Below, in pieces: positions 32,623-63,185 of a DNA stretch of 64,000 bases (positions are counted from its first letter, which is position 1; the number at the start of each line of letters is the position of its first letter). The notes beneath the pieces were generated by a model. It saw only the letters and a list, made by a program, of their open reading frames with translations, was not told the origin of the DNA and ran no database searches. The position numbers were made by a program, and so were the translations under genes. Source of the stretch: Rhodobiaceae bacterium. Its GTDB lineage: Bacteria > Pseudomonadota > Alphaproteobacteria > Rhizobiales > NORP267. The stretch is taken from the NCBI GenBank assembly GCA_020441905.1, contig JAGRLG010000054.1, positions 62,001 to 126,000 of the forward strand. Reading direction: 5' to 3'.

Positions 32623-32651
32623 ACCAGCGCCAAGGACACCGTTCGCTTTGA

Positions 32652-32683: not shown

Positions 32684-32719
32684 CCTGTCCCGGCTGCCCG
32701 GACCGGGTGCGGACAAGAC

Positions 32720-32757
32720 AAAAAACCGCCCCGGGGACCGTTTGGTCCTCGGGGCGG
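32720..32757 (-). terminator. Rho-independent terminator of the bcr operon
   Basis: Read on the minus strand, a 14-bp stem (32726-32739 with 32744-32757, one mismatch) with a 4-nt loop is followed by a T-run (AAAAAA at 32720-32725 on the plus strand). It sits 30 bp after the ferredoxin stop and faces the terminator of the GNAT pair. Confidence 0.9.
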
Positions 32758-32786
32758 CTGATACCTTGCCGAAATGGCAGCGGCGA

Positions 32787-33032
32787 TCAGGAATGCAGCT
32801 GGTTGTACTTCTCCATCAGCTGTTCCTTGCTCTCCGGCCAGTCCGGATCCGGCTCGATACACATCGCCGGGCAAACCAGCACGCACTGCGGCTCGTCTTC
32901 CGCGCCGACGCACTCGGTGCACTTAAGCGGTTCGATCTTGTAGATCGGATCGCCGGCGGAAATCGCCTGATTGGGACAAACCGGCTCGCACGCATCACAC
33001 GCCGTGCAAGCATCCGTAATAACCAATGCCAT
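32787..33032 (-). CDS. 2 x [4Fe-4S] ferredoxin, electron donor of benzoyl-CoA reductase
   Basis: 81 residues. Cluster 1 uses C9, C12, C15 and C19. Cluster 2 uses C38, C41, C50 and C54, with a further C58, and the 8-residue loop in the second motif is typical of Allochromatium-type ferredoxins. In Thauera this ferredoxin carries electrons from 2-oxoglutarate:ferredoxin oxidoreductase (korAB here) to BcrCBAD. It is the last gene of the had-oah-dch-bcrCBAD operon, 32 bp after bcrD. Confidence 0.93.
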   Translation of the reverse strand: MALVITDACTACDACEPVCPNQAISAGDPIYKIEPLKCTECVGAEDEPQCVLVCPAMCIEPDPDWPESKEQLMEKYNQLHS

Positions 33033-33064
33033 GTAAAAGGCCCTCCTTTTTGTTCAAGCCTTTA

Positions 33065-33907: not shown

Positions 33908-33920
33908 CAGCTTCTCTCCT

Positions 33921-37722: not shown

Positions 37723-37724
37723 GA

Positions 37725-39634: not shown

Positions 39635-39658
39635 TTCAGCGAAACTCCTCCAAGAAAC

Positions 39659-40729
39659 CTATTTGCCCGGAACCAGAACGACGCGGCGCTTGACCTGCCC
39701 CGCATGAACGTCGTGGAAAACCTGGTTGATGTCGTCCAGCGAGCGTTTTTCGACGAAGGGCGCGACCTGGATCTTGCCATCCAGGACAAGATCGAGAGCG
39801 CCGGGATAATTCTCCGGCACGCAGCCCCAATTGCCCAGCAGCCGGGCGTGAAACGCCATCAGGTTGGAAAGCCGGACCTCAACCTTGTCCATGGTGAAGC
39901 CGACCACCGCCATGGTGGCGCCGCGATTAAGCAGACCGTAAGCGGTGGTCTGGCCAACGGCGGTTCCCGAGCACTCGAAAATATACCATTCGGTCTGGCG
40001 CAGGCCGTTTTCCTTGGCGAAGGCGCGAATGGCGTCGCGCAGACCCTTGCCATCGTGATTGCGCGCATTCAGCGTCAGCGCCGCACCGTGCTTGGCGATA
40101 TTGGCCAGCTTGTCGTCGTCGACATCGATCGCCACCACCTTGGCGCCGAATGCCGCCGCGATCTGCGCCGTGTATCCGCCTACCCCGCCAATGCCGATAA
40201 CCACCGCCAGCGAGCCGGGCTCGATGCCGGCCTGGAGCACCGCCTGATAGGGCGTGGTCACCGCGTCGGCGACAATCGAAACTTGGGCCAGTTCCAGCCC
40301 GGCCTTGGCGAGGCGCGCTTCGTCAACCTCGCACAGGCCCTGCTGGGGCACGACAATATGGCTGGCAAAGCCGCCCTGGATGTCGTTACCCGGCATCTTC
40401 TGGTTGGGGCAGATCGTGCCCTTGCCGCGCACGCAGGCGTCGCAGGTTCCGCAGGGGATGACGGCGCAAACGATGACCGTCTTGCCCCTCCAGGCCTCTG
40501 CCCCGGCGCCGGTTTCCACCACGCGCCCCGATATTTCATGGCCCAAAGCCAAAGGAAAGGGCTGGTTGGTACGCACGCCATCGTAATAATAGCCAAGATC
40601 GGTGTGGCAGACGCCGCAACCGGCAACCTCGACGACAACCTCGCCCGCGCCGGGCTCGGCGCTGAACTCGGTACGCACCATGGGTTCCTTGACCCCGGTC
40701 ATATCCCATCTGTAAGCGGAAACAGCCAT
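39659..40729 (-). CDS. had: 6-hydroxycyclohex-1-ene-1-carbonyl-CoA dehydrogenase
   Basis: 356 residues of the zinc-type medium-chain dehydrogenase family. [17 protein letters not shown] carries the catalytic zinc cysteine and [12 protein letters not shown] follows. A structural zinc site is seen in [17 protein letters not shown], and the NAD Rossmann motif is [15 protein letters not shown]. It oxidises the hydroxy product of Dch to the 6-oxo compound. It is the first gene of the operon, and a weak FNR-type box lies 35 bp upstream. Confidence 0.94.
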
Positions 40730-40763
40730 GATCCGATTAATCCCCTTCCTCAGCCAGGCATAC

Positions 40764-40777
40764 CTTGATCTGGCTCA
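40764..40777. promoter_or_regulatory. Candidate FNR-type box upstream of had
   Basis: TTGATCTGGCTCAA is one base from TTGAT-N4-ATCAA and lies 35 bp before the had start. AcpR, an FNR-type activator, controls the bzd benzoate operon in Azoarcus sp. CIB, so such control would be natural here. Confidence 0.45.
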
Positions 40778-40894
40778 AAGACCTTGCCGCGCTCACCCGC
40801 TTCGATGGCCCCAAGGTCTTGTTGCCGAAACACATCGGAGCGGGAGCAGGTGCGACGCCAAGCGCCTTGACAGCCAGAAACTCACTCAATATCG

Positions 40895-40925
40895 TAAAAT
40901 CGTACTGGAATACGAAATTAAGTCA
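40895..40925. promoter_or_regulatory. Inverted repeat and shared 11-mer between the bcr and kor operons
   Basis: TCGTA-CTGGAA-TACGA (40900-40915) is an inverted repeat. It overlaps ATACGAAATTA (40910-40920), which recurs in the pad promoter at 20143-20153. It lies 62 bp before the korA GTG and about 180 bp before had, within an A/T-rich patch. Confidence 0.45.
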
Positions 40926-40981
40926 ACCCGTATCTCTGGCATCTTTTCCCGGTACGCTGAAACAAAGGGGACATTGGCGCC

Positions 40982-42712
40982 GTGACAAACCAGCGCAAAG
41001 TACAATCAAGCCTCTCCGTCGCCGTCACAGGCAGCGGCGGTGCAGGCGTCATGACCGCAGGCGGATTCCTGCTCGAGGCTGCGGCACGCAGCGGCTGGTT
41101 CGGGTTGATGACCCGATCCGTCGGGCCACAGATCCGCGGCGGCGAGGCAGCGGCTCTGCTGCGTTTTTCCAACCGCCGGGTCGATGTCCCGGCCGAGTCC
41201 TACAACATTCTGTTCGTTGTCGACTGGCTCAATTTCGATCGCTTCTCGGCCGAAATCCACCTGACTCCCGATACCATGGTCATTGCCGACCCCGATTCGG
41301 GCGAGGTGCCGGAAGTGGTCGTCAAGTCGGGCGCGCGCATGTTCGACATGCCGGTCAAGCAGGTGCTTGGCGCCATCGAGGGCGGCCGCCCCAACATGCT
41401 GGCGACCGGCGTCGTCGGCGGCATCATCGGCCTGCCGATCGACACCATTTACGAACTCATCCAGGACAATCTCGGCTCCAAGGGCGAAAAAGCGGTCAAT
41501 TCGAGCAAGGCCACCGTCGAAGCCGGCTACCGCTTCGCCGAAACCCTGACCGACGCCCCCGCGCTGGCGGAACCGAAAAAATCGGACAAGAGGCGCTGGA
41601 TCATCACCGGCAACGAGGCCGCCGGCCTTGGCGCCGTGCGCGGCGGCGTACGCTTTGCCGCCGCGTATCCGATCACGCCCGGCACCGAGATTCTGGAATG
41701 GCTGGCGCCCAACCTGCGCAAGCTTGGCGGCGCCCTGGTGCAGGCCGAGGACGAACTGGCCTCGATCAACATGGTCATTGGCGGCTCCTATGGCGGCGTT
41801 CCCGCGATCACCGCCACCTCCGGCCCCGGCCTGGCGCTGATGACCGAGTCCATCGGCCTGGCGGTTGCCGCCGAAGTGCCCTGCGTCATTGTCGACGTCA
41901 TGCGCGGCGGCCCCTCCACCGGCATTCCGACCAAGTCCGAACAGTCGGATCTCAACATTGCCGTCTATGGGCTGCATGGCGACGCACCCCATATCGTCAC
42001 CGCCCCCAATTCAGTCTCCGATTGCCTGTTCACCACCCAGTGGTCGGTGTACCTCGCCGAGGCGATGCAGACCCCGGCAATCGTGCTGTCCGACCAGTTC
42101 ATCGGCCAGGCCAAGATCGTCATCGATCCGCCTGCGGACATAGCCTTTGTCGGCAAGCGCCTGCTCGCCCAGAACATCGAGGGCGAATACCGGCGCTATG
42201 CTGTCACTGAATCGGGCGTGTCCCCGATGGCGGTTCCCGGCGTTGCCGGCGGCCAGCACACCGCTGACGGCCTCGAGCACAATCCGCGCGGCACGCCGTC
42301 AACCCGCGCCGAAGACCACATGACGCAGATGAACAAGCGCCTGCGCAAGATCACAGGCTTTGATTACGGCTCGCACTGGGCCGAAATCGACGGCGAGGGC
42401 GAACTGGCGGTCCTGACCTGGGGATCGTGCACCGCCGCCGCCCTCGAGGCGGTGGAAGCGGCCCGCGAGGCCGGCATCGCGGTCAAGCTCATTTCGCTGC
42501 GCCTGATTTCGCCCTGCCTGCCCGACGCCATGGCCAAGGCCCTGGAAGGGGTCAAGAAGGTCCTGGTTGTCGAACAGACCCATTCGGGCCAGTTCGCCAA
42601 TTACCTCAGGGCCCAGTACGAACTTCCCTCCGAGGTTCGCAGCTATCACATTCCCGGCCCCCTCACCATTCGCCCCTCAGAAATTCTGAGCCAAATTCAG
42701 GACTGGAGCTAA
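40982..42712 (+). CDS. korA: 2-oxoglutarate:ferredoxin oxidoreductase, fused gamma-alpha subunit
   Basis: 576 residues from a GTG start. The N-terminal gamma domain (about 1-190, with GSGGAGVMTAGGFLLEAA and SVGPQIRGGEAAALLR) is fused to an alpha domain with AYPITPGTEILEWL and TSGPGLALMTE, followed by a C-terminal domain ending near residue 576. KorAB decarboxylates 2-oxoglutarate and reduces the ferredoxin that feeds benzoyl-CoA reductase. The two-subunit form is as in Thauera. Other 2-oxoacids, including phenylglyoxylate, cannot be excluded from sequence. Confidence 0.92.
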   Translation: MTNQRKVQSSLSVAVTGSGGAGVMTAGGFLLEAAARSGWFGLMTRSVGPQIRGGEAAALLRFSNRRVDVPAESYNILFVVDWLNFDRFSAEIHLTPDTMVIADPDSGEVPEVVVKSGARMFDMPVKQVLGAIEGGRPNMLATGVVGGIIGLPIDTIYELIQDNLGSKGEKAVNSSKATVEAGYRFAETLTDAPALAEPKKSDKRRWIITGNEAAGLGAVRGGVRFAAAYPITPGTEILEWLAPNLRKLGGALVQAEDELASINMVIGGSYGGVPAITATSGPGLALMTESIGLAVAAEVPCVIVDVMRGGPSTGIPTKSEQSDLNIAVYGLHGDAPHIVTAPNSVSDCLFTTQWSVYLAEAMQTPAIVLSDQFIGQAKIVIDPPADIAFVGKRLLAQNIEGEYRRYAVTESGVSPMAVPGVAGGQHTADGLEHNPRGTPSTRAEDHMTQMNKRLRKITGFDYGSHWAEIDGEGELAVLTWGSCTAAALEAVEAAREAGIAVKLISLRLISPCLPDAMAKALEGVKKVLVVEQTHSGQFANYLRAQYELPSEVRSYHIPGPLTIRPSEILSQIQDWS

Positions 42713-46881: not shown

Positions 46882-47262
46882 CTACTTGGTGGCTTCCGCC
46901 AGATAGGCCAGCAGATCTTCCATCTGGTCTTCCTTCTTGATGCCGGCAAAGGACATCTTGTTGCCCGGCACGGCTGCCTTCGGGTCTGCAAGATAGGTTT
47001 TCAGGGTTTCGGCATTCCATTCCAGGCCCGAATTGATCATGGCGTCGGAATATTTGAAGCCTTCGACAGTGCCCGCCTTGCGGCCGAACAAGCCCTTCAG
47101 GCTCGGGCCAACCTTGTTCTTGGCCTCGTCGGCGACGTGGCAGGCCTTGCACTTGTTAAAGATCTTCTCGCCCTTGGCAGCATCGCCATCGGCCAGGGCC
47201 GGCCCGGCAACCGCCGCGGCCGCGGTGAGCAGCACCGCGGCAAAAAGGGATGTACGCTTCAT
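46882..47262 (-). CDS. Class I cytochrome c (cytochrome c2/c550 type)
   Basis: 126 residues from ATG 47262, preceded by AAGGAG. A signal peptide (MKRTSLFAAVLLTAAAAVAG, cleavage after ALA) is followed by CKACH, KVGPSLKGLFGRKAGT and the distal methionine in PGNKMSFAG. It is a soluble periplasmic carrier and a likely donor to NirS or to CcoP. An FNR-type box lies about 325 bp upstream, with a structured repeat region in between. Confidence 0.93.
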   Translation of the reverse strand: MKRTSLFAAVLLTAAAAVAGPALADGDAAKGEKIFNKCKACHVADEAKNKVGPSLKGLFGRKAGTVEGFKYSDAMINSGLEWNAETLKTYLADPKAAVPGNKMSFAGIKKEDQMEDLLAYLAEATK

Positions 47263-47605
47263 TCCAATCTCCTTCATATGTTCATGAGAACCGCCGCCCC
47301 CGAGCGGTCAGTCTCACCCGATCCTTTCCACATTGGCGCCATGGCATCCGGCCAGATGCGGATATCTACGTGCCCGGAACTCCTTTGATATCCCTTTCAG
47401 GATATGCGGCGACTGGGCACACCCCGGAACTCCTTTGCCCGGGAATGCGCCGGACCAAACCGAAGTCAGACCCCCCTGATCTTCGGCGGTGGCCATATAA
47501 CTAGACATTGTGATGCCAAGGTCAAGTTACAGCTTCAGGCCCGCCCTCAGGCTGGCGCGAAGCTAGCGCAACACCCGGCAGCTTCCTTGACAAAAATCAA
47601 TCGTC
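47263..47605. promoter_or_regulatory. Structured intergenic region upstream of the cytochrome c gene
   Basis: 343 bp. A 15-bp direct repeat, CCCGGAACTCCTTTG, occurs at 47373-47387 and 47423-47437. The segment 47371-47420 folds with GTGCCC/GGGCAC closing a stem around an inner ATATCC/GGATAT hairpin. A second hairpin CCCGG/CCGGG encloses the second repeat. An FNR-type box lies at 47587-47600. It could be a long 5' leader of the cytochrome gene or a small RNA on either strand. Confidence 0.5.
47587..47600. promoter_or_regulatory. FNR-type box between hemA and the cytochrome c gene
   Basis: TTGACAAAAATCAA is TTGAC-N4-ATCAA. It lies just after the hemA stop and 325 bp before the cytochrome start on the minus strand, so a promoter here would give a long leader. 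Confidence 0.65.
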
Positions 47606-48820
47606 TCAGGCGACGTTGCGTAATGGCAGATCGACCTTTGCCCAGCTTGCCAGCAGGGCCTCGACGAGATTGCCCATCAGGATATCGTCATGGAAGGGCG
47701 AGGGCGTCAGCCGCAACCGCTCGGTGCCCTTGGGCACGGTCGGATAATTGATCGGCTGGACATAGATGCCATGGGTCACCATGAGATCGTCTGTGATCGC
47801 CTTGGCCCGCACCGGGCAACCCACCAGCACCGGCACGATATGGGTTTCGCTCGGCATGACCGGCAATCCGGCGGCCGTCAGGCGCTTCTTCAGCGTTGCC
47901 GCGCGCTCCTGGTGGCGCTGGCGCAATTCGTCATGAACCTTGAGATATTCGACACTGGCCAGGGCCGCGCCGGCAACCGCGGGCGGCAGCGAGGTGGTGA
48001 AGATGAAGCCCGCGGCGTGGCTGCGCACGGCATCGACCAGCGCCGACGACCCGGTGATATATCCGCCCATGCAGCCAAAGGCCTTGGCCAGCGTGCCCTC
48101 GATGATGGTCACCCGGCCGGCGACCCCGTCGCGCTCCGAGATACCGCCGCCACGCTTGCCGTATAGGCCGACGGCATGAACTTCGTCGAGATAGGTCATG
48201 GCGCCGTACCGTTCCGCGAGGTCGCAGATGCCGGCGATGGGCGCCACGTCGCCATCCATCGAATAAACCGATTCAAAGGCCACCATCTTCGGCCGCCCGG
48301 GCTCGGCCGCGGCCAGCAGCTCCTCAAGATGGGCAAGGTCGTTATGGCGCCAGATGCGCCGCTCGCAACCAGCCTGGCGGATGCCGTCGATCATCGAGGC
48401 ATGGTTGAGGGCGTCGGAAAAGATGATGCAGCCCGGCAGCAGCTTGGCCACGGTGGACAGCGTCGCCGAATTCGAGACATAGCCCGAGGTAAAGAGCAGC
48501 GCCGCTTCCTTGCCGTGGAGATCGGCCAGCGACTTTTCCAAAAGCACGTGGAGGTGGTGGGTGCCCGAAATATTGCGCGTACCGCCCGAACCGGCGCCCA
48601 TCTTGCGCGCCGCCTGGCAGGCCGCCTCGATCACTTCCGGGTTCTGTCCCTGGCCGAGATAGTCGTTCGAGCACCAGCCGACGATACGGTCCGGACCGGG
48701 GCCGTGATTGCGTGCATAGGGGAACTCGCCGGCGATCCGTTCAAGATCGGCAAAGACGCGGTAGCGGCCTTCGTCGCGAACCTGTTCCACCGCTGTTTTG
48801 AAAATCTTCTCGTAATTCAT
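47606..48820 (-). CDS. hemA: 5-aminolevulinate synthase
   Basis: 404 residues from ATG 48820 (GAGG site 9 bp upstream); the frame is open 29 codons further but those cover the FNR box. PLP-dependent alpha-oxoamine synthase with [40 protein letters not shown] and the lysine in [17 protein letters not shown]. It condenses glycine and succinyl-CoA, the first step of haem synthesis in alphaproteobacteria. The box upstream suggests higher haem synthesis under low oxygen. Confidence 0.97.
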
Positions 48821-48893
48821 CGGCTCGATCCTCAGACTACGCGAGCGCCGTGCAAAGCGGGACCCAAGATCCCTGACGCCAATTCCCGCTGCA

Positions 48894-48907
48894 TTGACCA
48901 ATATCAA
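48894..48907. promoter_or_regulatory. FNR-type box upstream of hemA
   Basis: TTGACCAATATCAA is TTGAC-N4-ATCAA, 74 bp before the hemA start and just after the nnrS stop. Its position fits a class II activator site if transcription starts about 35-40 bp downstream. Confidence 0.75.
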
Positions 48908-50259: not shown

Positions 50260-52371
50260 TCACGCCCCGGCCGAGTCGGCCTCGCGCCTGGCCGCGACCT
50301 CCTCGCGGCGCTGGCGCCGTTTTGCCCGCTCGATCAGCGGCGGGCAAGTCCGCTCGTCGTAATAGAGCATCTGGCAGTTTAGGCAATTGATGCATTCATT
50401 GGGATTGATGCTGCCATTGGGATGGATGGCCTGCACCGTGCAACGGCGCGCGCACACTCCGCACTCGGTGCCGCATTGCTTGCGCCGCTTCAGCCAGTCG
50501 AACATGCGCAGCCGCGCCGGAATGGCCAGCGCCGCCCCGAGCGGGCACAGATAGCGGCAATAGAAGCGCTCGATCACCAGTCCCAGCACCAATATGCCGA
50601 GCGCAAACAGGACGAAGGGCCACTGGCGCATGAATTTCAGGGTTATGACGGTCTTGAACGGCTCGATTTCAGCCCCCGTAAAGGCCGCCGTCACCGAATT
50701 CAGCGATACCGCGAACAGGCCGAGGAAGAGAATATACTTGATCGGCCACAACCGCTCATGCAGGGCGAAATTGACGTTGATCTGTTTCAGTCCCGCCTTG
50801 CGCGCCAGTTCGTTCAGCAGTTCCTGCAAGGCGCCGAAGGGGCACAGCCAGCCGCAGAACACGCCCCGGCCCCAGAACAGCAGGGCGACGCCGACAAAGC
50901 TCCAGAGGATGAAGACGAAGGGATCGAGCAGGAACAGCTCCCAGGAAAATCCGGTCAGCAGCGCCTGCACGAAGGAGATGACGTGCACCACCGACAATTG
51001 CGCGCCCAGCCACCAGCCGATCAGGAACAAGGTGGCGGCAAGATAGGAGAGGCGCACAATTCGATAGAGGCGGAAGCGTTCCGACAGCGAATCCTGGAAC
51101 ACCAGGATCGCCGACAGCACCGCCAGCATGACCGTGATGACGATGATTCCCGGCACCCGCGACTGCCAGTTTTCCAGCCAGTACAGCGAAGCGGCCGGCG
51201 CCGGCGCCTCGGCGGATCCGCTGACGTAGCGCGGCGGCAGGCGGAACGGCAGGGCAAATTCGGCCACCGCCACCGCTCCGCCGGCAAGGTCGCGCGTTGC
51301 AATGAGATTGATCTGCCACGGCTCGGCGGGCTTGAAGCCGCTATTGCCGGGAATGACGAACTGGCCGATCTCGCGCAAGGCCGGCGCGCCGGCGATTCCC
51401 AATTGCCGCACATTGCGGTAATTGGCCGCTCCGAGCCGGATGGTCTGCGTGCCCTGGATCAGCTCGATGCGATCGAAGGTGCCGCTCTTGCGATAGCTCG
51501 TGCCCTTGAAGGAATAAAGGCCATTGCCCGCCACCAGAATGGCGTGATCATCCGGCCCCAGACCCGCAGCCAGCTCCGAATAGGCAATCGGCCCTAGGAG
51601 ATTCTGGCCGATGCGCGGCGGCGTCAAAAGCGTGGCGAAAAGCTCGACAAAGGTTCCGCCATCGTCGGACTGGGCCTCGACACCCAGCGCCTGATTGGCT
51701 TCGCCGACGGTGATATGCCGGCGCGCGATCGCGCCCTCCTCGATCAGATCGTCCCAGGACGCTTTGCTGAATGTCGCCGGCGCCAGGGATTGCGTGGCCG
51801 TGCCTGCGATGATGCCCCGCGAGCTGGCGATGGCCCTGGCGGTGCGCAGGATAGCGCCGCGCATCACCGCGCTGGAAACCGTGGCGCCACTGAAGGACTG
51901 GGGAATTCCCGAAACCTGTGCGCCGTCCGCTCCCTTCAGCGGCGCCTTCAGATCGAGGCCGGAAAATGCCGAGACGAACCCGGCAAGGTCTTCATGGGAG
52001 ATGCCGAGGATGAGCACCGGCTCGCTCTGGGCCACCATATGCGCGCCGCGCAACACGCCCTTGCCATCGACCGCGACCAGAATGTCGATCGGCTTGCCGG
52101 AATAGCCGACCGAGCGCGCGATCGTCCAGGTCGAGGCCAGATATCCGATCAGGTGGCCGTTGCGAAAGACGCCCTGCGCCGGCGGCTCGCCTTTGACCGG
52201 ACCCACCGTAATCTGGAGCGGCGGCGAGTCGAACAGGCGCGCGGCCAGCGGGCGAAGCTCGCTGGGCGATAATTCGGCCGCCCCGCCAGCATTCAAGAAA
52301 ATGGCTGAAAACAGGGAAAAAATGAGCAGCCGAACAGCGCCCCGGAAGATGGTTGCGACAACAGACCGCAT
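50260..52371 (-). CDS. nirI: NosR/NirI family membrane flavo-iron-sulfur regulator
   Basis: 703 residues from ATG 52371. An N-terminal signal or anchor and periplasmic FMN-binding domain (with SGATVSSAVMRGAI, the threonine flavinylation-type SGATxS) precede six membrane helices and two CxxxCP motifs (CGWLCPFGALQEL and CRYLCPLGAALAI). A C-terminal cysteine-rich ferredoxin-like region follows (CGTECGVCARRC, CINCLNC). NirI in Paracoccus is required for nirS expression and is divergent from nirS, exactly as here. NosR is the alternative, but no nos genes are present. Confidence 0.88.
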   Translation of the reverse strand: MRSVVATIFRGAVRLLIFSLFSAIFLNAGGAAELSPSELRPLAARLFDSPPLQITVGPVKGEPPAQGVFRNGHLIGYLASTWTIARSVGYSGKPIDILVAVDGKGVLRGAHMVAQSEPVLILGISHEDLAGFVSAFSGLDLKAPLKGADGAQVSGIPQSFSGATVSSAVMRGAILRTARAIASSRGIIAGTATQSLAPATFSKASWDDLIEEGAIARRHITVGEANQALGVEAQSDDGGTFVELFATLLTPPRIGQNLLGPIAYSELAAGLGPDDHAILVAGNGLYSFKGTSYRKSGTFDRIELIQGTQTIRLGAANYRNVRQLGIAGAPALREIGQFVIPGNSGFKPAEPWQINLIATRDLAGGAVAVAEFALPFRLPPRYVSGSAEAPAPAASLYWLENWQSRVPGIIVITVMLAVLSAILVFQDSLSERFRLYRIVRLSYLAATLFLIGWWLGAQLSVVHVISFVQALLTGFSWELFLLDPFVFILWSFVGVALLFWGRGVFCGWLCPFGALQELLNELARKAGLKQINVNFALHERLWPIKYILFLGLFAVSLNSVTAAFTGAEIEPFKTVITLKFMRQWPFVLFALGILVLGLVIERFYCRYLCPLGAALAIPARLRMFDWLKRRKQCGTECGVCARRCTVQAIHPNGSINPNECINCLNCQMLYYDERTCPPLIERAKRRQRREEVAARREADSAGA

Positions 52372-52407
52372 GACAGGATCTCTATAATGGATCAAACACA
52401 GACCGGT

Positions 52408-52421
52408 TTGATCATAGTCAA
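52408..52421. promoter_or_regulatory. FNR/NNR box between nirI and nirS
   Basis: TTGATCATAGTCAA is TTGAT-N4-GTCAA. It lies 37 bp before nirI and 64 bp before nirS, so it can serve both divergent genes. Confidence 0.82.
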
Positions 52422-52484
52422 ACAGCGCGGCGTCATAACTGGACATCTAGCCGCAACCGTAACTGGTAGATCTGGAGGGATTAA

Positions 52485-54254
<1,770 letters not shown>

Positions 54255-54280
54255 CCACGGCGGCTTGTGCTGCACATGGA

Positions 54281-54312
54281 AGGCGCGGGGGCTGGCTCCC
54301 GCGCCTTTTTTG
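54281..54312 (+). terminator. Rho-independent terminator after nirS
   Basis: AGGCGCGGG (54281-54289) pairs with CCCGCGCCT (54298-54306), and T-rich sequence follows. It isolates nirS from the second copy. Confidence 0.9.
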
Positions 54313-54535: not shown

Positions 54536-54549
54536 TTGATTGAGATCAT
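54536..54549. promoter_or_regulatory. FNR-type box upstream of the second nirS
   Basis: TTGATTGAGATCAT differs by one base from TTGAT-N4-ATCAA. It lies 65 bp before the ATG, nearly the same distance as in the first nirS. Confidence 0.68.
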
Positions 54550-54613: not shown

Positions 54614-56230
54614 ATGACGAAATTAGCGCTAACTGGCGCAGTGCTTGGCTTGGCACTTGGGTCTGCCTTGGTGGCCGGCGCCGTGTCGACAGCAAGCGCG
54701 CAAGAGCCGAAATTGTCCGAAGAGGCATTTGAGCACTCGAAAACACTTTATTTCCAGCGCTGTGCTGGTTGCCATGGCGCCCTTCGCAAGGGTGCGACCG
54801 GCAAGAATCTTGAGCCGAAAAATACCCGCAAGCTGGGCCAGGAGCGTCTTGAGAAGATCATCACGCTCGGCACCGAAGGCGGCATGAACAACTTCGACGA
54901 TTTCTTCACCAAGGAAGAAATCCGCGATATGGCCACCTACATCATGATGGATCCGCCGCAGGCTCCGGAAATGAGCCTGGCGCAGATGAAAGAGCGCTGG
55001 AAGGTCCACATCAAGCCGGAAGACTATCCCACCAAGCCGATGCATGGCCGCAACTGGGAAAACTTCTTCGTCGTCATTCTGCGCGACGTCGGCAAGATGG
55101 CGATCATCGACGGCGACAAGAAGGAAGTCGTCGCCAAGGTTGACACCGGCTATGCCGTGCACGTCACCAAGGAATCGTCCGACGGCCGTTTCTGGTATAC
55201 CCAGGGCCGCGATGGCCGCATGACCAAGATCGACCTGTGGATGGATCCGCCCCAGGTGGTCGCCGAAACCCAGATCGCGGCTGATGCCCGCGACGTCGCG
55301 GTTTCGCATTTCGGCGAATGGAAGGACAAATACGTCATCGGTGGCGGCTATTGGCCCCCCCATTTCGTGATCCTCGACGCCGTCACCATGGAACCGCTGA
55401 AGGTGGTTTCGACCCGCGGCGTCGACGTTGACGGCAATTTTGTCAACGAAGCCCGTGTCGCGGCGATCTACAACACGCCCAAGGCGCCGACCTGGATCGT
55501 CGCCGTGAAGGAACTGGGCCAGCTTTGGCAGGTCGATTATTCCGACCTCGACAATCTGCGCATCGAGCAGATCAACAGCCATAAGTTCCTGCATGACGGC
55601 TTCTACGACCCGACCCAGCGCTACTTCCAGATCGCGGCCAACGCCTCGAACCGGATAGAGATCATGGACTCGGTCGACCGCAAGTTCGTCGCTTCGATCG
55701 AAACCGGCAAGAAGCCGCACCCGGGTCCCGGCGCCAATTGGCAGGATCCCGAATGCGGCGCGGTTGCCGGCACCGTCCATCTTGGCGAAGGCAAGGTCAC
55801 GGTCTGGGGCAACGATCCCGAAAAGGCCGCCGACAAGGCGTGGAAGATCTGCTACTCGCTTGAAACCGATGGTCCCGGCCTGTTCATCAGGACGCATCCG
55901 AACTCGCCTTATGTCTTTGCCGATCAGACGCTGCATCCGGAAGCGGATGTCAACCAGTCGATCCAGGTCATCGACAAGAAGACCCGCAAGATCGTCAAGA
56001 CGATCCGCGTCACCGAAGAGCCCAAGGCGGTTGCCGTTCATTCCGAATTCAACAATGACGGCAGCGAAGTCTGGGTCTCGGTCTGGGTCCGCGGCGAGAA
56101 GAAGAACTGGTCGAAGGGTGAGATCGTCGTTTACGACACCAAGACCCTGCAGGAGAAGGCCCGCATCAAGGGGCTGGAGACTCCGACCGGCAAGTTCAAC
56201 GTCTATAATCGCGTGCACCACACCACTTAA
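54614..56230 (+). CDS. Second, divergent cytochrome cd1 (NirS-like)
   Basis: 538 residues: signal peptide (cleavage after ASA, residue 29), cytochrome c with CAGCH at 50-54, and a d1-type propeller. H183 (GYAVHVTKESSDGRF), H327 (KFLHDGF) and H389 (TVHLGEG) align with the d1 ligand and both active-site histidines. It is shorter than the first copy by the N-terminal arm. Many propeller motifs differ: [11 protein letters not shown] becomes DGPGLFIRTHP, and extra cysteines C381 and C413 appear. It is too complete to be NirF and has haem c, like NirN, but NirN normally differs more from NirS. Most likely a second nitrite reductase or a d1-dependent relative. Confidence 0.87.
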   Translation: MTKLALTGAVLGLALGSALVAGAVSTASAQEPKLSEEAFEHSKTLYFQRCAGCHGALRKGATGKNLEPKNTRKLGQERLEKIITLGTEGGMNNFDDFFTKEEIRDMATYIMMDPPQAPEMSLAQMKERWKVHIKPEDYPTKPMHGRNWENFFVVILRDVGKMAIIDGDKKEVVAKVDTGYAVHVTKESSDGRFWYTQGRDGRMTKIDLWMDPPQVVAETQIAADARDVAVSHFGEWKDKYVIGGGYWPPHFVILDAVTMEPLKVVSTRGVDVDGNFVNEARVAAIYNTPKAPTWIVAVKELGQLWQVDYSDLDNLRIEQINSHKFLHDGFYDPTQRYFQIAANASNRIEIMDSVDRKFVASIETGKKPHPGPGANWQDPECGAVAGTVHLGEGKVTVWGNDPEKAADKAWKICYSLETDGPGLFIRTHPNSPYVFADQTLHPEADVNQSIQVIDKKTRKIVKTIRVTEEPKAVAVHSEFNNDGSEVWVSVWVRGEKKNWSKGEIVVYDTKTLQEKARIKGLETPTGKFNVYNRVHHTT

Positions 56231-56244
56231 GTGGGCCACAAATC

Positions 56245-56277
56245 GAGCGGAGGGGCCAACCCCCTCCGCTCTTTTTT
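56245..56277 (+). terminator. Rho-independent terminator after the second nirS
   Basis: GAGCGGAGGGG (56245-56255) pairs with CCCCTCCGCTC (56261-56271), loop of 5, followed by T6. The second nirS therefore forms its own transcription unit. Confidence 0.92.
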
Positions 56278-56372: not shown

Positions 56373-58193
56373 ATGAGCGACACCAACGACGCCGGCAAAC
56401 AGGACATGGCGGCCGCGCCGCGCGGTATCAAACGCTGGCTGACCTATTCATTGTTCGGAATTCCGCTCATCGGAGCCGCCGGTTTTTTTGTCTTCGGCAT
56501 CATCTTCTGGGGCGGCTTCAACACCGCCATGGAGGCGACCAACACGCTGAATTTCTGCATCACCTGCCACGAGATGGAAAACAACGTCTACCAGGAATAC
56601 AAGAAGACCATTCACTATCAGAACCGCACCGGCGTTCGCGCCGCCTGCTCGGACTGCCATGTTCCCGATCCCTGGGTTCATAAATTCATCCGCAAGATCC
56701 AGGCATCGCGCGAGATTTTCTACAAGATCACCGGCTCCATCAACACCAAGGAAAAATTCGAGGAGCGGCGTCTGCATCTGGCGCGCCGCGTCTGGGCGAC
56801 CATGAAGCGCACGGATTCGCGCGAGTGCCGCAACTGCCACAATTTCAATGCGATGAACCCGGAATTCCAGCGCCCGCGCGCGCGCAAGCAACACCTCAAT
56901 GCTTTCGAGAACGGCCAGACCTGTATCGATTGCCACAAGGGCATCGCGCACAACAATGTCCGCGACAAGCTGCCCGAGGAGGAACTGGAGGCACTGGAAA
57001 AGCCGGTCGTTGCTTTCGCCCGCCAGGTGCCGGAGGATTTCATCACCCATCTCAATGCCGTCGAGGCGCGTGAAAAGGCGGCCGAGGAAGCCAGGCAGGC
57101 CGAGGCCGCCGCCGCCGAAGCCAATGTCAAGACGCGCATCGAGCAGGCCGTGGCAAAGGCCCTGGCCGGCGGCGCTGCTGCTGCCCAACCTGCTGGCGGC
57201 GCTGCCGCGGCACCGGCCGCCGCATCCGGCCCCGGCGCCGATATCGACTGGGCGTCGCGCGAGGCCAAGACCGTAACCCTGTTCTATCCCGGCCAGGCCT
57301 CCTTCGAGTGGATCCAGACCGGCAAGGACCATGGCGGCGCCCGGGCCGTGACCAAGGCCGGCGACCGCTGCTCGACCTGTCACGCCAAGGAAGTGAAGGA
57401 CATGGGCAAGAAGATCGTGTCCGGCGAGAAGATCGAGCCGACGCCGATCCCCGGCAAGCGGCCCTTCATCGAAATGCAGGTCAAGACCGCCCATGACGAC
57501 AAGAACCTCTATATGCAGCTGAGCTGGACCGATGACGGCCATCACCCGGTTCCCTTTGTCGACGGCGGCAAGATGGACCCGGAGAACCAGGTCAAGCTGG
57601 CGGTCATGTTTGCCGGCCAGGGCATCGAATATGCCGAGCAGGCCGGCTGCTGGGTCACCTGCCACAACGACTCGCGCTACATGCCCGACGAGCCCAAGCC
57701 CGACGCCCTGGCTGGCGCCGATGGAATCAAGGATATCGTCGGACTGAGCGCCGGCATCACCAAGTATCTCGCCGAATCGCGGACCGAGATGGAGATTGCC
57801 GGACGGCGCGGCGCGGCGCGCGGCGGCTGGAACAAGCCCAAGACCAAGGACGAGCTGGAGGCCCTGGCCAAGGCCGGCACCTTTATGGATGTGATCCGCT
57901 TCACATCTTCCGGCAAGTCGGAAAACGGCGACATTCTCGCCCACCGCGACATGGCCTCCGGCGCCGCGATCACGGCCCAGGGCGGCTTGGACGGCACCAC
58001 CTGGACCGTCGTCCTGAGCCGGCCGCTGACCTCGGACAAGCCGGGCGATGTCAATATCGAGGCCGGCAAGATCTACACCGTCGGCTTCGCCATTCACGAC
58101 GACTACACCGTGGCCCGGTTCCACCATGTGTCGCTGGAGTATAAACTCGGCCTCGACACTGCCGACGCCGATATCAATGTTGTGAAGAAATAG
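56373..58193 (+). CDS. NapC/NirT-type multihaem cytochrome fused to a C-terminal haem domain
   Basis: 606 residues. A cytoplasmic N-terminus, one membrane helix (about 25-47) and a NapC/NirT tetrahaem domain with CITCH 62-66, CSDCH 92-96, CRNCH 152-156 and CIDCH 184-188. An Ala/Glu-rich coiled-coil-like and low-complexity linker (about 230-290) leads to a C-terminal domain with CSTCH 333-337 and CWVTCH 426-431, a C-x3-CH site. The second part resembles the beta-sandwich haem domain of ethylbenzene-dehydrogenase gamma subunits. Such quinol dehydrogenases feed electrons to periplasmic reductases, here presumably NirS. Its promoter lies in the 95 bp after the preceding terminator. Confidence 0.85.
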   Translation: MSDTNDAGKQDMAAAPRGIKRWLTYSLFGIPLIGAAGFFVFGIIFWGGFNTAMEATNTLNFCITCHEMENNVYQEYKKTIHYQNRTGVRAACSDCHVPDPWVHKFIRKIQASREIFYKITGSINTKEKFEERRLHLARRVWATMKRTDSRECRNCHNFNAMNPEFQRPRARKQHLNAFENGQTCIDCHKGIAHNNVRDKLPEEELEALEKPVVAFARQVPEDFITHLNAVEAREKAAEEARQAEAAAAEANVKTRIEQAVAKALAGGAAAAQPAGGAAAAPAAASGPGADIDWASREAKTVTLFYPGQASFEWIQTGKDHGGARAVTKAGDRCSTCHAKEVKDMGKKIVSGEKIEPTPIPGKRPFIEMQVKTAHDDKNLYMQLSWTDDGHHPVPFVDGGKMDPENQVKLAVMFAGQGIEYAEQAGCWVTCHNDSRYMPDEPKPDALAGADGIKDIVGLSAGITKYLAESRTEMEIAGRRGAARGGWNKPKTKDELEALAKAGTFMDVIRFTSSGKSENGDILAHRDMASGAAITAQGGLDGTTWTVVLSRPLTSDKPGDVNIEAGKIYTVGFAIHDDYTVARFHHVSLEYKLGLDTADADINVVKK

Positions 58194-58240: not shown

Positions 58241-58675
58241 ATGCGCAAATTGACGCCAGGGATCGCCTTCGCCGGCGCCCTGGCGCTCGCCTTTCTGCTC
58301 ACGCCCGCCCTGGCCCAAAAGGACAGCGAAGCGGAACGTGAGAAGATCTGCGCCGAAGCGGGCGAGCGCTACAAGGAACTGTTCGGCAAGGAGGCTTCCG
58401 GGGAAGCCATGCCGATCGTCATGATGTACCGCTATCATTTCTGCCCCGGCGGACTGACAGTCAAACCGGGCGTCACCGTGCGCTGGGTCAATGTCGACAA
58501 GCGCACCAGCCATTCGGTTTGGTTCCGCGCCGACGGCAAGGAAGAGTCGGTCCGCCTGTTTCCCGAGGAGCATGTCGAGATGGCCATCGACCTTGCGCCG
58601 GGCGAGCATGAATATCTCTGCGGTCCGCACTGGGAAAAGGAAGGCATGCGCGGCCGTCTCGAGGTCCAGCCCTAG
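58241..58675 (+). CDS. Cupredoxin-domain (plastocyanin-like) periplasmic protein
   Basis: 144 residues. The signal peptide ends at LTPALA (about residue 25). The mature protein has a charged helix, then a cupredoxin fold with the first copper histidine in RTSHSVWF and the C-terminal loop YLCGPHWEKEGMRG. The loop is C-x2-H-x5-M, slightly longer than in plastocyanin (C-x2-H-x4-M). It is probably a type 1 copper electron carrier that could donate to a NirS. The upstream stretch FCPGGLTVKPGVTVRWVN is typical. It follows the multihaem cytochrome by 47 bp. Confidence 0.82.
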   Translation: MRKLTPGIAFAGALALAFLLTPALAQKDSEAEREKICAEAGERYKELFGKEASGEAMPIVMMYRYHFCPGGLTVKPGVTVRWVNVDKRTSHSVWFRADGKEESVRLFPEEHVEMAIDLAPGEHEYLCGPHWEKEGMRGRLEVQP

Positions 58676-58828: not shown

Positions 58829-58842
58829 TTGATAGAAATCAA
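58829..58842. promoter_or_regulatory. Perfect FNR/NNR box upstream of nirE
   Basis: TTGATAGAAATCAA matches TTGAT-N4-ATCAA exactly and lies 36 bp before the nirE ATG. It should control the whole haem d1 biosynthesis operon. With so short a distance the leader is very short, or the start is at ATG 58908. Confidence 0.83.
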
Positions 58843-58877: not shown

Positions 58878-59690
58878 ATGCCCCAGGGAAACTCTGCACG
58901 TGATGTCATGCCCGCTGTCGGCAAGGTAGTTCTGGTCGGCGCCGGTCCAGGCGATCCCGATTTGCTGACGGTCAAGGCCGCCAAGGCGATCGAGGCCGCC
59001 GATGTCATCGTCTATGACCGTCTGGTGTCACCGCAGATCCTCGATCTGGCGCCGCGCGGCGCGGCGCTGATTTCGGTCGGCAAGGCGCCGCGCAATCATT
59101 CCATGCCGCAAAGCGAGATCAACGCCCTCCTGGTGCGCCTGGCTCTTGGCGGACGCCATGTGATCCGCCTCAAGGGTGGGGATCCCTTCATTTTCGGCCG
59201 CGGCGGCGAGGAAGCCCTCGAGCTGGCAAAGCACAAGATTCCCTTCGAGGTCATTCCCGGCGTCACCTCGGCGCAGGGCTGCGCCGCCGCCGCCGGCGTA
59301 CCGCTGACCCATCGCGGTCTGGCCACCAGCGTGCGCTACATCACCGGCCATTGCCGCGAGGACATGGATCTCGATTACGACTGGAAAGGCCTTGCCGACC
59401 CCGATACCACGCTAGCGGTCTATATGGGGCGCGCCACCGCACCGCTGATTTGCGAAAGGCTGGCCGAACACGGCCTGGCCGGCGATACACCGGTTCTGAT
59501 TGTCGCCAGGGGCACGACAAAGGACGAATGGCGCTGCCTGACCAGGCTCGATGCGCTGGAGAGCAAGGTTGCGGAACTGGAGTTTGACGGGCCGGTCCTG
59601 TTTGTCATCGGCAAGGTTGCGGGCCTTGCCCGTGAACTCGGAGGCATGGATGCGCATCAAGGCGAAAAATCGCCGGCGCTCACCGCGTAA
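58878..59690 (+). CDS. nirE: Uroporphyrinogen III C-methyltransferase (haem d1 synthesis)
   Basis: 270 residues; ATG 58908 is an alternative start. SUMT family: VVLVGAGPGDPDLLTVKAAKAI, YDRLVS, RLKGGDPFIFGRGGEE, and GVPLTHRG. It methylates uroporphyrinogen III twice to precorrin-2, the first committed step to haem d1. CobA or the siroheme methyltransferase would have the same fold; position at the head of nirCFDLGHJ makes NirE the right name. The next gene starts inside its 3' end. Confidence 0.93.
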   Translation: MPQGNSARDVMPAVGKVVLVGAGPGDPDLLTVKAAKAIEAADVIVYDRLVSPQILDLAPRGAALISVGKAPRNHSMPQSEINALLVRLALGGRHVIRLKGGDPFIFGRGGEEALELAKHKIPFEVIPGVTSAQGCAAAAGVPLTHRGLATSVRYITGHCREDMDLDYDWKGLADPDTTLAVYMGRATAPLICERLAEHGLAGDTPVLIVARGTTKDEWRCLTRLDALESKVAELEFDGPVLFVIGKVAGLARELGGMDAHQGEKSPALTA

Positions 59691-60030
59691 GCCAGGAAAC
59701 ATCTGGTCTGTGTTGGCGTTGGGATTCGTTGCAGCAGGCGGCGCGCCTTCTCTGCCGGCCCTCGCCGAGGGCGCGGTCGACGCCGCCCGCGGCAAGCAAT
59801 TGTCCTATCTGGTCCGTCAGGACTGCGGGTCGTGCCATGGCATGACGCTGAAAGGCGGGCTTGGCCGGCCGCTGCTGCCGGAGACCCTGGCCGGCGCCGA
59901 CGCCCGGACACTGGCCGCGATCATTCTCGACGGTATTCCGGGCACGCCGATGCCACCCTGGCGCGGCCAGATCGACGAGACCGAAGCGATGTGGATTGCG
60001 CGGGCCTTGAAAGAGGGAACCATCGAATGA
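59650..60030 (+). CDS. nirC: Periplasmic cytochrome c NirC
   Basis: 126 residues from ATG 59650, inside the last 41 bp of nirE, with GAGG 5 bp upstream. A basic N-terminus (MRIKAKNRRRSPRK) and a hydrophobic signal segment to PALAEG are followed by a single c-type haem site CGSCH and a distal methionine in GTPMPPW. NirC can donate electrons to NirS and has been linked to d1 maturation. Overlaps the nirF start by 4 bp. Confidence 0.88.
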   Translation: MRIKAKNRRRSPRKPGNIWSVLALGFVAAGGAPSLPALAEGAVDAARGKQLSYLVRQDCGSCHGMTLKGGLGRPLLPETLAGADARTLAAIILDGIPGTPMPPWRGQIDETEAMWIARALKEGTIE

Positions 60031-61211
60031 ATGCCATCAGGACCATGGTCCTAAGCCTCGTTGTCCTGTTCACCAATCTTGCCGGCGCCGCGGCGGGCGA
60101 GCCCCGCGGCACCGGTGATCTGGGCATTGTCATCGAGCGCGCCAGCGGGTCGCTGGCCATCGTCGAATGGAGCGGGCGCCGCGTCCTCGGCCGCGTCGAG
60201 GGCCTCGGCGACCTCTCCCACGCCTCGGCGGTGTTTTCCCGCGACCAGCGCTATGCCTATGTCTTCGGCCGCGATGGCGGCCTGACCAAGGTCGACCTTC
60301 TGGAGATGAAAATCGCCAAGCGGGTGGTCCAGGGCGGAAATTCGATCGGCGGCGCCATTTCCGACGACGGCACCTTGATCGCCGTTTCCAATTACGAGCC
60401 TGGCGGCGTCAAGGTCTTCGATGCCGTCACGCTCGATCTGGTGGCCGACATCCCGGCGGCCTATGGGCCCAAGGGCGCCCTGTCCAAGACCGTCGGTCTG
60501 GTCGATGCGCCGGGGCGCAGGTTTGTCTTCTCGCTTTATGATGCCGGCGAGATCTGGATCGCCGATTTCTCGCAGGGGCCGAATCCGCAGCTGACACGCT
60601 TTGCCGGGATCGGCAGCCAGCCCTATGACGGCCTGATCACCGGGGACGGCCGGCACTATATCGCCGGGCTGTTCGGCGAAGACGGCCTGTCCCATCTCGA
60701 CCTGTGGGCCGGCAAGCCCGAGCCCCGCCGCATCCTGGAAGGCTATGGCCGCGGCGAAGAAAAGCTCCCCGTTTACAAGATGCCGCATCTGGAGGGCTGG
60801 GCCCTGGCAGGGGGGCGCTTCATCCTGCCCGAGGTCGGCCACCACGAGCTGATCGCGATGGATGCGGCGACCTTCGCCGAGGCCGGCCGCGTCGCCGTCC
60901 ATGGTCAGCCGGTCTTTGCCGTTGCCCGCCCCGACGGGCGCCAGGTCTGGGTCAATTTCGCCCATCCCCTCAACGATACCGTCCAGGTTGTCGACGTTCC
61001 CAGCCTGAAGATCATCCATGAGTTCAAGCCCGGGCCGGCGGTCCTGCACATGGAATTCACGCCGCGCGGCGACGAGGTCTGGATCTCGGTGCGCGACGCC
61101 GACAAGGTCGAGATTTACGATACCCGCACTTTTGCCAAGCGCGGCGAACTGAAAATTGCCAAACCCAGCGGGATATTTTTTACCGCCCGCGCCACCAGGA
61201 TCGGACTATGA
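60027..61211 (+). CDS. nirF: Haem d1 biosynthesis protein NirF
   Basis: 394 residues from ATG 60027, overlapping the nirC stop (ATGA). A signal sequence (to AAAGEP) is followed by a d1-binding-type propeller without any CxxCH: SVFSRDQRYAYVFGRDGGLTKVDL-like, GPKGALSKTVG and MPHLEGWALAGGRF. NirF acts late in haem d1 synthesis in the periplasm. It is homologous to the d1 domain of NirS but lacks the cytochrome c part. Confidence 0.94.
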   Translation: MNAIRTMVLSLVVLFTNLAGAAAGEPRGTGDLGIVIERASGSLAIVEWSGRRVLGRVEGLGDLSHASAVFSRDQRYAYVFGRDGGLTKVDLLEMKIAKRVVQGGNSIGGAISDDGTLIAVSNYEPGGVKVFDAVTLDLVADIPAAYGPKGALSKTVGLVDAPGRRFVFSLYDAGEIWIADFSQGPNPQLTRFAGIGSQPYDGLITGDGRHYIAGLFGEDGLSHLDLWAGKPEPRRILEGYGRGEEKLPVYKMPHLEGWALAGGRFILPEVGHHELIAMDAATFAEAGRVAVHGQPVFAVARPDGRQVWVNFAHPLNDTVQVVDVPSLKIIHEFKPGPAVLHMEFTPRGDEVWISVRDADKVEIYDTRTFAKRGELKIAKPSGIFFTARATRIGL

Positions 61212-62224
61212 GCATTGCCATTCTCCATGCCGACCCCCGGATCGGCCTGCTCGACAATTGGCAGAGGGATTTTCCCCTGTGCCAACGGCCCTATGCCAAT
61301 CTCGGCCGCAGCTTCGACCTCTCCGAGGCCGAAGTCATTTCGGTGCTGAGCGAATGTCAGGAGGACGGCCGGCTGAGCCGGGTCGGCGCCGTGATCAAGC
61401 CGAACTCGGTCGGCGCCAGCACCCTCGCCGCCATGGCCGTGCCCGAGGAGCGGATGGAGGAAGTCGCCGACCTGGTCAATGCCGAGCCCGGCGTCAATCA
61501 CAATTACGAGCGCGAACACGACCTCAATCTGTGGTTCGTCGTCACCGCGCCCGATGCCGCGGCGCTTGCCGCGACGCTGGAGCGGATTGCCCGCACCACC
61601 GGTTTCAAGGTCGTCGATCTGCCGCTGGAATGCGCCTATCACATCGATCTCGGCTTCCCTCTCGACGGCCGCGGCAATGCGCGCCGCGGCGCCGGCAGCG
61701 CGCCGCACCGGGCCGAACCCGATGAAGACGACCGCCGTCTCCTTGCCGAAATCGAGGACGGACTGCCGCTGGCGCCTCGCCCCTATGCCGAAATCGCCCT
61801 GCGTCTGGGCTGGAAGGAGGAGGAAGTCCTCTCCCGCCTCGCCGCCCTCCATGAAGCCGGCATCATTTCCCGTTTCGGCTGCATTGTCCGCCATCGCAGC
61901 CTCGGATTCACCGCCAATGCCATGGTCGCCTGGAACGTTCCCGACCACCGGGTCGACACCGCCGGCGCCCTGGTTGCCTGCCACAACATCGTTTCGTTGT
62001 GCTACCGCCGCACCCGCCGTCCGCCGGTATGGGGCCACAACCTGTTTGCCATGATCCACGGCCGCGAACGCGGCGAAGTGAAGGCCGCGATCGAAAGCGT
62101 CACCCTTGCCAGCGGCCTTGCAGAGGTCGATCGCGATATCCTGTTCTCGCGCCGCTGCTTCAAACAGCGCGGCGCCCGCTATTCCAACGGGCGCGGGGCC
62201 GGCGGCCACAGGGGTGCCGCTTGA
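61208..62224 (+). CDS. nirDL: Siroheme decarboxylase, fused NirD-NirL
   Basis: 338 residues made of two Lrp/AsnC-like halves. The first (about 1-160) holds NDLCQ-like FPLCQRPYANLGRSFDLSE and NHNYEREHDLNLWFVVTAP. The second (from about 175) holds LPLAPRPYAEIALRLGW and CYRRTRRPPVWGHNLFAMIHG. With NirG and NirH it decarboxylates siroheme to didecarboxysiroheme. The fusion of D and L is also known from Paracoccus-type loci. It overlaps nirF by 4 bp and nirG by one base. Confidence 0.93.
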   Translation: MSIAILHADPRIGLLDNWQRDFPLCQRPYANLGRSFDLSEAEVISVLSECQEDGRLSRVGAVIKPNSVGASTLAAMAVPEERMEEVADLVNAEPGVNHNYEREHDLNLWFVVTAPDAAALAATLERIARTTGFKVVDLPLECAYHIDLGFPLDGRGNARRGAGSAPHRAEPDEDDRRLLAEIEDGLPLAPRPYAEIALRLGWKEEEVLSRLAALHEAGIISRFGCIVRHRSLGFTANAMVAWNVPDHRVDTAGALVACHNIVSLCYRRTRRPPVWGHNLFAMIHGRERGEVKAAIESVTLASGLAEVDRDILFSRRCFKQRGARYSNGRGAGGHRGAA

Positions 62225-62679
62225 TGGGGCGAATCCTCGACGATACCGACCGCGCCATCGTCAATGGCCTCCAGGGCGGCTTTCCGCTCACCGAGACGCC
62301 CTTTGCCGACGCCGCGGCGAAATTCGGCATTGGCGAGGATGAACTGATCGCCCGGATATCGGGCCTTGCCGACGACAAGCTGCTCAGCCGCTTCGGGCCG
62401 ATGTACAATGCCGAGCGCCTCGGCGGCGCGCTTTCGCTTTGCGCCATGCAGGTGCCCGAAGCGCGCTTCGAGGAAGTCGCCGCCCGGGTCAATGCCCATG
62501 ACGAGGTGGCGCACAATTATGCCCGCGCCCATGCGCTCAATATGTGGTTTGTCGTCGCCACCGAGCAGCCCGAGCAGAAGGACGCCGTGCTGGACGAAAT
62601 CCGGCATGAAACCGGCATCGAGGTCTATGATTTTCCAAAGATCGAGGAATTCTTCATCGGCCTGAAGGTGGAAGTGTGA
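62224..62679 (+). CDS. nirG: Siroheme decarboxylase subunit NirG
   Basis: 151 residues from ATG 62224, whose A is the last base of the nirDL TGA. It has the Lrp-like HTH part (DRAIVNGLQGGFPLTETPF) and the conserved NYARAHALNMWFVVA. It is one of the four siroheme decarboxylase paralogues. A frame continuing upstream through nirDL is a shadow. Confidence 0.92.
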   Translation: MGRILDDTDRAIVNGLQGGFPLTETPFADAAAKFGIGEDELIARISGLADDKLLSRFGPMYNAERLGGALSLCAMQVPEARFEEVAARVNAHDEVAHNYARAHALNMWFVVATEQPEQKDAVLDEIRHETGIEVYDFPKIEEFFIGLKVEV

Positions 62680-63185
62680 ATCAGTCCGTGCCCGCGCCCC
62701 GCTTTTCCGCCCCCGATGCCATCGACCGCCGCATCATCGCCGCGACGCAAACCGGCCTGCCGCTGGTGGCACGGCCCTATGACGCCATAGGCGAGGAAAT
62801 CGGGATCGGCGGCGCGGAGGTCATCGCGCGGCTGAAAAAGATGCTTGAATGCGGCATCATCCGGCGCATCGGCGTGGTGCCGAACCACTATGCCCTCGGC
62901 CTCACCGCCAACGGAATGTCGGTTTGGGATGTCGAGGACGAGCACATCGCAAAGCTGGGACGGCGCGTCGGGGCGCTGGATTTCGTTTCCCATTGCTACC
63001 AGCGCCCGCGCCATCTGCCCTTGTGGCCCTACAACCTCTTTGCCATGGTGCACGGCACCAGCCAGGCCGAGGTCGATGACAAGGTTGCGGCCATCGCGAA
63101 ATTGCTCGCTGGCGCGGTTCGCGGCCATGACGTCCTGGTCTCGACCCGGATCTTGAAGAAAACCGGCCTGCGTATCGCGGCCTGA
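62676..63185 (+). CDS. nirH: Siroheme decarboxylase subunit NirH
   Basis: 169 residues from a GTG start overlapping the nirG stop by 4 bp. It shows the family pattern DRRIIAATQTGLPLVARPYD and CYQRPRHLPLWPYNLFAMVHG, closest to the second half of NirDL. It works with NirDL and NirG in haem d1 synthesis. Confidence 0.92.
   Translation: MNQSVPAPRFSAPDAIDRRIIAATQTGLPLVARPYDAIGEEIGIGGAEVIARLKKMLECGIIRRIGVVPNHYALGLTANGMSVWDVEDEHIAKLGRRVGALDFVSHCYQRPRHLPLWPYNLFAMVHGTSQAEVDDKVAAIAKLLAGAVRGHDVLVSTRILKKTGLRIAA

Follow-up and report, generated by a model that had tools for sequence, protein, structure and literature searches.

A second nirS in a Rhodobiaceae bacterium belongs to a separate NirS clade that keeps company with a multihaem cytochrome and a cupredoxin

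Among the key enzymes of denitrification is cytochrome cd1, whose biochemistry is known mostly from a few canonical proteins. Those enzymes also reduce oxygen and hydroxylamine, and proteins of the NapC/NirT type are able to serve other reductases. A genome may hold more than one nirS: multiple copies occur in 16% of assemblies, mostly from different clades (PMC10999283). In Stutzerimonas, NirT is required for nitrite reduction, and a fused NirTB has been reported from Halomonas (PMC13086519). Strains studied from the Halomonas desiderata group reduce nitrate and nitrite, forming N2O and N2, and only three members of the group are named as also carrying the other nirS (PMC8014003).

The window considered here, a stretch of 64,000 nucleotides from a Rhodobiaceae bacterium, carries two nirS genes in tandem. 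A first-pass annotation described the second (nirS2) as a divergent cytochrome cd1 next to nirS (nirS1). It overlooked a near-constant pair of genes that lies downstream of nirS2, not of nirS1, and is followed by the haem d1 genes. The locus is laid out as follows:

50260–52446 (−): nirI/nosR-like flavoprotein gene, divergent from nirS1 (domain search, synteny)
52485–54254 (+): nirS1, a canonical Paracoccus-type NirS with N-terminal arm (domains, tree)
54614–56230 (+): nirS2, encoding the divergent-clade cytochrome cd1 nitrite reductase of 538 aa (ORF list, domain search, alignment, tree)
56373–58193 (+): tetrahaem NapC/NirT domain joined to an EB_dh domain that adds two haem c motifs, a putative quinol-oxidising electron donor (domains, motifs, synteny)
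58241–58675 (+): plastocyanin-like cupredoxin, copper ligands H91, C127, H130 and M136 (domain search, alignment, synteny)
58878–59690 (+): nirE, for uroporphyrinogen-III methyltransferase, first gene of the haem d1 set (position and homologue annotation)
59551–61211 (+): nirC and nirF, as two overlapping longest ORFs, 59551–60030 and 59832–61211, their starts provisional (ORFs, domains)
61208–63185 (+): nirDL, nirG and nirH, with nirJ and nirN next, running past the window end (ORFs, homology)

That nirS2 encodes a cytochrome cd1 is plain: its product matches Cytochrom_D1 with 394 bits behind an N-terminal cytochrome c domain (CBB3/Cytochrom_C). Against proteins of solved structure it scores 481 bits with NirS of P. 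aeruginosa and 472 with that of P. pantotrophus, 203 with NirN and 58 with NirF. It is also divergent, being only 43% identical to its neighbour NirS1 by pairwise alignment. The altered propeller loops that had been remarked upon are real as differences but modest in extent, amounting to 22 gap positions in 518 columns between the two proteins and about 40 substitutions or indels fixed in the clade to which nirS2 belongs.

When proteins of that clade are aligned with 47 canonical NirS and 14 NirN, the catalytic residues are all found. The haem c site (C50-x-x-C53-H54), the haem c methionine ligand (Met91), the d1 proximal histidine (His183) and both active-site histidines (His327 and His369) are invariant in 39 of 39 clade proteins, so the first reading of the haem c site and these histidines extends to the clade as a whole. 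The N-terminal arm is indeed lacking: the first alignment, of 35 clade proteins, has gaps in every one of them where P. pantotrophus has His17 and Tyr25. Its loss is no argument against activity, since the NirS of P. stutzeri has no arm either and the arm is thought to be dispensable (PMC7278500).

The pocket that holds haem d1 is another matter. P. aeruginosa uses three arginines to hold the d1 carboxylates, Arg156, Arg198 and Arg372 (for the last, PMC7278500). The first two are kept in the clade, as Arg157 and Arg199, and the third is replaced by proline in 38 of 39 proteins, so d1 binding in nirS2 must differ. The full set of three is not known to be essential for activity. (A search under the name P. 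pantotrophus Arg391 found no literature; the same residue appears as P. aeruginosa Arg372 in PMC7278500.) Arg185 has become lysine in every clade protein, and a glycine after the FLHDG motif has become phenylalanine. The two extra cysteines noticed earlier, C381 and C413, are the sole cysteines of nirS2 outside the haem site; they are present in 39 of 39 clade members and in none of the 47 canonical NirS. With a pocket short of one anchoring arginine and a fixed cysteine pair, it is plausible that the kinetics of nirS2 differ from those of canonical NirS.

Could the changes at Arg372, Arg185 and the FLHDG glycine mean that nirS2 acts mainly on something else, perhaps hydroxylamine or oxygen, both of which canonical cd1 enzymes are known to reduce, or that it detoxifies NO, leaving nitrite to nirS1? 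The invariance of both active-site histidines speaks against this, and so does the distribution of the clade, to which I return below.

A cytochrome cd1 fold is not confined to NirS, and nirS2 shares Lys186, Phe330, Arg426 and His476 with NirN, residues missing from canonical NirS. One might then suppose that nirS2 serves, as NirN does, in haem d1 assembly and is no terminal reductase. But NirN has Asp or Glu at the position of His327, and the genome has a nirN of its own behind nirJ. The phylogeny also speaks to the point. In a quick maximum-likelihood tree of 93 rows, the clade of nirS2 (35 rows, support 83) and all other NirS (52 rows, support 99, among them P. aeruginosa, P. pantotrophus and nirS1) fall on opposite sides of one branch, and NirN is set apart by a very long branch, with nirS2 on the NirS side. 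Two long rows (L035 and L168) join each other and their placement is unsure, but neither bears on the clade. Identity to the nirS2 protein is 64–82% within the clade, 42–47% for canonical NirS and 30–34% for NirN. A role like that of NirN is thus scarcely credible.

Thus nirS2 lies inside neither typical NirS nor NirN, the two placements that would have told against the first description, and is a member of a NirS clade that stands well apart and is found in alpha- and gammaproteobacteria. Other identities were considered and set aside. A recent duplication of nirS1 does not fit 43% identity and separate clades, and NirN does not fit the position in the tree or the retained first active-site histidine. 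NirF is a d1 propeller with no cytochrome c domain, and nirS2 has one. The source genome has one nirN and one nirF of its own, so nirS2 is neither of them. Nor is it a pseudogene, the reading frame being intact, the key residues all present and the protein conserved across many genomes.

The clade was found in about 37 genomes, in a sample collected by similarity to the nirS2 protein, so that its more distant relatives are under-sampled. Among its members are Magnetovibrio blakemorei, Pseudothioclava arenosa and metagenome-assembled genomes labelled Thiohalomonas denitrificans and Ca. Thiodiazotropha; in Ruegeria and Aliiroseovarius it lies on plasmids, where the complete cluster stands alone. 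Seventeen of the genomes also carry a canonical NirS. In 15 the clade protein is the sole NirS with all candidates scored, and in 5 further genomes it is alone among the three candidates scored in each. Among cultured strains, Pseudothioclava arenosa seems to have no other NirS, and the same may hold for Ruegeria sp. THAF33. Many of these genomes are drafts, although G048 and G746 are single contigs. No NirK scored above the curated cut-off in the 17 genomes tested, the source genome included. Far from being an isolated extra copy, nirS2 thus belongs to a clade that is widespread and often has no other NirS beside it. With no NirK above the cut-off where tested, many organisms have no other candidate for the reduction of nitrite to NO.

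Clade nirS genes usually sit beside the genes for haem d1 assembly, and in several genomes they come first in the haem d1 operon. In the gammaproteobacterial member G535, nirS adjoins nosR and nosZ and is preceded by an ORF that resembles Crp/Fnr regulators (read by eye). Given a clade that keeps every catalytic residue, has no second NirS in at least 15 genomes and in several heads the haem d1 operon, the suggestion of another substrate, raised at the outset by the first-pass annotation, finds no support, and I consider it most improbable. The identity of the nirS2 enzyme as a NirS is well supported.

What, then, of the two genes that follow it? The first encodes a protein of 606 aa in which a Cytochrom_NNT domain (240 bits) with four CxxCH motifs is joined to an EB_dh domain (124 bits) with two haem c motifs. 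As expected of NirT, the NapC/NirT half bears a membrane anchor (read by eye). The second gene encodes the cupredoxin, whose copper ligands are conserved among homologues. Among loci with enough sequence, the NapC–EB_dh cytochrome adjoins clade nirS in 30 of 32 and the cupredoxin in 31 of 32. Two clade loci have only the cupredoxin beside nirS, so the cytochrome is not indispensable. Canonical nirS loci lack the pair unless it is supplied by a tandem clade copy or an arm-less intermediate gene. Three canonical loci do have a downstream cytochrome, and each has such a neighbour: a tandem clade copy in the window and in L013, an adjoining arm-less intermediate gene in L129. A divergent nirI stands beside 15 of 32 canonical loci and none of 32 clade loci. 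The contrast can be seen among close kin: in Ruegeria pomeroyi, a canonical relative, nirS is followed directly by nirE, while Ruegeria sp. B32 has clade nirS, cytochrome, cupredoxin and nirE in that order.

The association holds genome-wide. Among 385 alphaproteobacterial genomes, the full-length fusion is found in exactly 8, the same 8 in which the clade or the related arm-less lineage is present (Fisher p about 1e-16, counting genomes as independent despite their shared ancestry). The sole exception to the co-occurrence is the genome G076, which has adjacent NapC-like and EB_dh-like pieces (C42:5959–7549) but gave no NirS match. The donor slot itself varies, some lineages filling it with an unfused NapC and separate dihaem cytochromes. 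A separate NapC gene followed by one or two dihaem cytochromes (PSCyt1, Cytochrom_C) in place of EB_dh is seen at L009:8058–9391, L017:9805–12191 and L019:9701–12031. Larger cytochromes, with one NapC and two EB_dh domains and eight haem c motifs in total, are found at L015:9735–12458 and L025:5806–8595. A search of the literature found none that names the NapC–EB_dh/cupredoxin pair with NirS.

I propose that nirS2 is a genuine NO-forming nitrite reductase with a dedicated electron route from quinol to NirS, which I take to be the probable reading of the sequences. The NapC/NirT half of the cytochrome would oxidise membrane quinol, and its two extra haems would relay electrons outward. Either the cupredoxin or the EB_dh domain would then deliver them to the haem c of nirS2, through which they would reach haem d1, where nitrite bound between His327 and His369 would be reduced to NO. 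Such a route would bypass the bc1 complex, leaving nirS1 on the ordinary route through bc1 and cytochrome c. The single nirECFDLGHJN set downstream of nirS2, by which the genome has genes for haem d1 biosynthesis, would provide haem d1 for both enzymes.

The pair may of course do something less specific. If it is a general periplasmic distributor of electrons, or a partner that activates the enzyme, then nirS2 would still be a nitrite reductase, the same c-type cytochromes would feed both NirS1 and NirS2, and the copies would differ mainly in regulation. Catalytic activation of cytochrome cd1 has been put forward as a role of NirT (PMC13086519), the two nirS copies of Dechloromonas differ in expression (PMC6593283), and the two clade loci with no NapC–EB_dh beside nirS are at ease with this idea. 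Yet the fused cytochrome tracks the clade or the arm-less lineage and not canonical NirS alone, more specific behaviour than a general distributor would call for, and I think this alternative rather unlikely. A bolder form of the dedicated route can be offered tentatively: the clade may be a distinct type of enzyme, wired to quinol independently of bc1 by the hexahaem NapC–EB_dh protein and the cupredoxin and marked by its changed d1 pocket (Arg372 to Pro) and the C381–C413 pair, so that organisms with both copies would run nitrite reductases of different energy yield and kinetics.

Both nirS genes have sequences that look like control elements of their own:

52408–52421 (strand unassigned): FNR/DNR-type box between nirI and nirS1 (motif scan)
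54278–54309 (+): terminator-like hairpin after nirS1, long stem (hairpin scan)
54536–54549 (+): FNR/DNR-type box TTGATtgagATCAT, one mismatch, 64 bp before the nirS2 start codon (motif scan)
56245–56271 (+): terminator-like hairpin after nirS2, 11-bp stem and T-run (hairpin scan)
58829–58842 (+): exact FNR/DNR-type box TTGATagaaATCAA before nirE (motif scan)

The box and the terminator that had been credited to nirS2 are thus both there. Chance is an unlikely source of the box, for boxes recur upstream of its homologues: with at most one mismatch they precede 13 of 37 clade genes (2 of the 37 entries being nirS2 itself, seen in two overlapping loci), and shuffles give 0.4. None of 56 cytochrome genes has such a box before it. 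The signal is weak for boxes with two mismatches, 23 in the window where 12.9 are expected. Terminator-like sites in the region show no excess over shuffles, so the case for the nirS2 terminator is its long stem and its placement. FNR-type boxes before each nirS and long-stem hairpins after both suggest that each gene may have its own transcript, the cytochrome and cupredoxin being reached by read-through. Regulators of the FNR/DNR type would switch on each nirS at low oxygen.

Similar boxes are found elsewhere in the window. At 10422–12683, an exact FNR-type box (11285–11298) separates two divergent genes, one for a regulator of the Crp/Fnr family and one for a HemN-like radical SAM protein, near genes for a cbb3 oxidase and a FixG-like protein. 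At 46882–48907, genes for a small cytochrome c and for a protein like 5-aminolevulinate synthase have FNR-type boxes at 47587 and 48894 and apparently belong to the same regulon. Between these, at 25636–42712, lie genes for a molybdoenzyme of the xanthine-dehydrogenase type, a member of the 2-hydroxyglutaryl-CoA dehydratase D-component family and a pyruvate/2-oxoacid ferredoxin oxidoreductase, which may serve anaerobic aromatic degradation.

How much of this is new? Two nirS in a genome and NirT partners are already known, so the novelty is moderate, but I found no description in the literature of the cupredoxin partnership or the fixed changes in the pocket. These features of the clade deserve biochemistry. 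A widespread and often sole NirS, with a changed d1 pocket and a cytochrome and copper protein tied to it, suggests that nitrite respiration has a second wiring plan, one that could affect energy yield and the accumulation of nitrite or N2O in marine and saline settings. Because the source genome has the two plans next to each other, it offers a single genetic background in which to compare them.

Set beside the systems already described, nirS2 resembles in build the canonical NirS of P. aeruginosa and P. pantotrophus (46–47% identity), sharing with them the order of domains, the haem c site, the methionine ligand, the proximal and active-site histidines and the Tyr and Trp of the pocket. Unlike them it has no N-terminal arm, has Pro for Arg372 and Lys for Arg185, and has C381 and C413. 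It is followed by the NapC–EB_dh cytochrome and cupredoxin, where canonical nirS is followed by nirE, and no divergent nirI adjoins it. NirN is likewise a cytochrome c joined to a d1 propeller and has a few residues in common with nirS2, but it is only 30–34% identical, lacks the first active-site histidine and occupies a separate long branch.

Two published groups may correspond to the clade. The NirS1-type of the Halomonas desiderata group ("clade I", PMC8014003) is 36–46% identical to other Halomonas NirS and has members in alpha- and gammaproteobacteria, and the layout reported for the group (dnr, nirS1, nosRZ) is that of G535. From this synteny, and not from the sequences themselves, I infer that the two are the same. 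NirS clade 1k, called marine proteobacterial (PMC10999283, Pold et al. 2024), resembles the nirS2 clade in having marine and sulphur-oxidising proteobacterial hosts; equating the two is guesswork based on hosts and habitat. A parallel to the gene order is nirSTB of Stutzerimonas (PMC13086519), in which, as here, nirS is directly followed by a tetrahaem cytochrome of the NapC/NirT type together with a dihaem unit (NirB). But the NirS of Stutzerimonas belongs to another clade (1b), and the nirS2 locus has EB_dh as its dihaem unit and then a gene for a cupredoxin.
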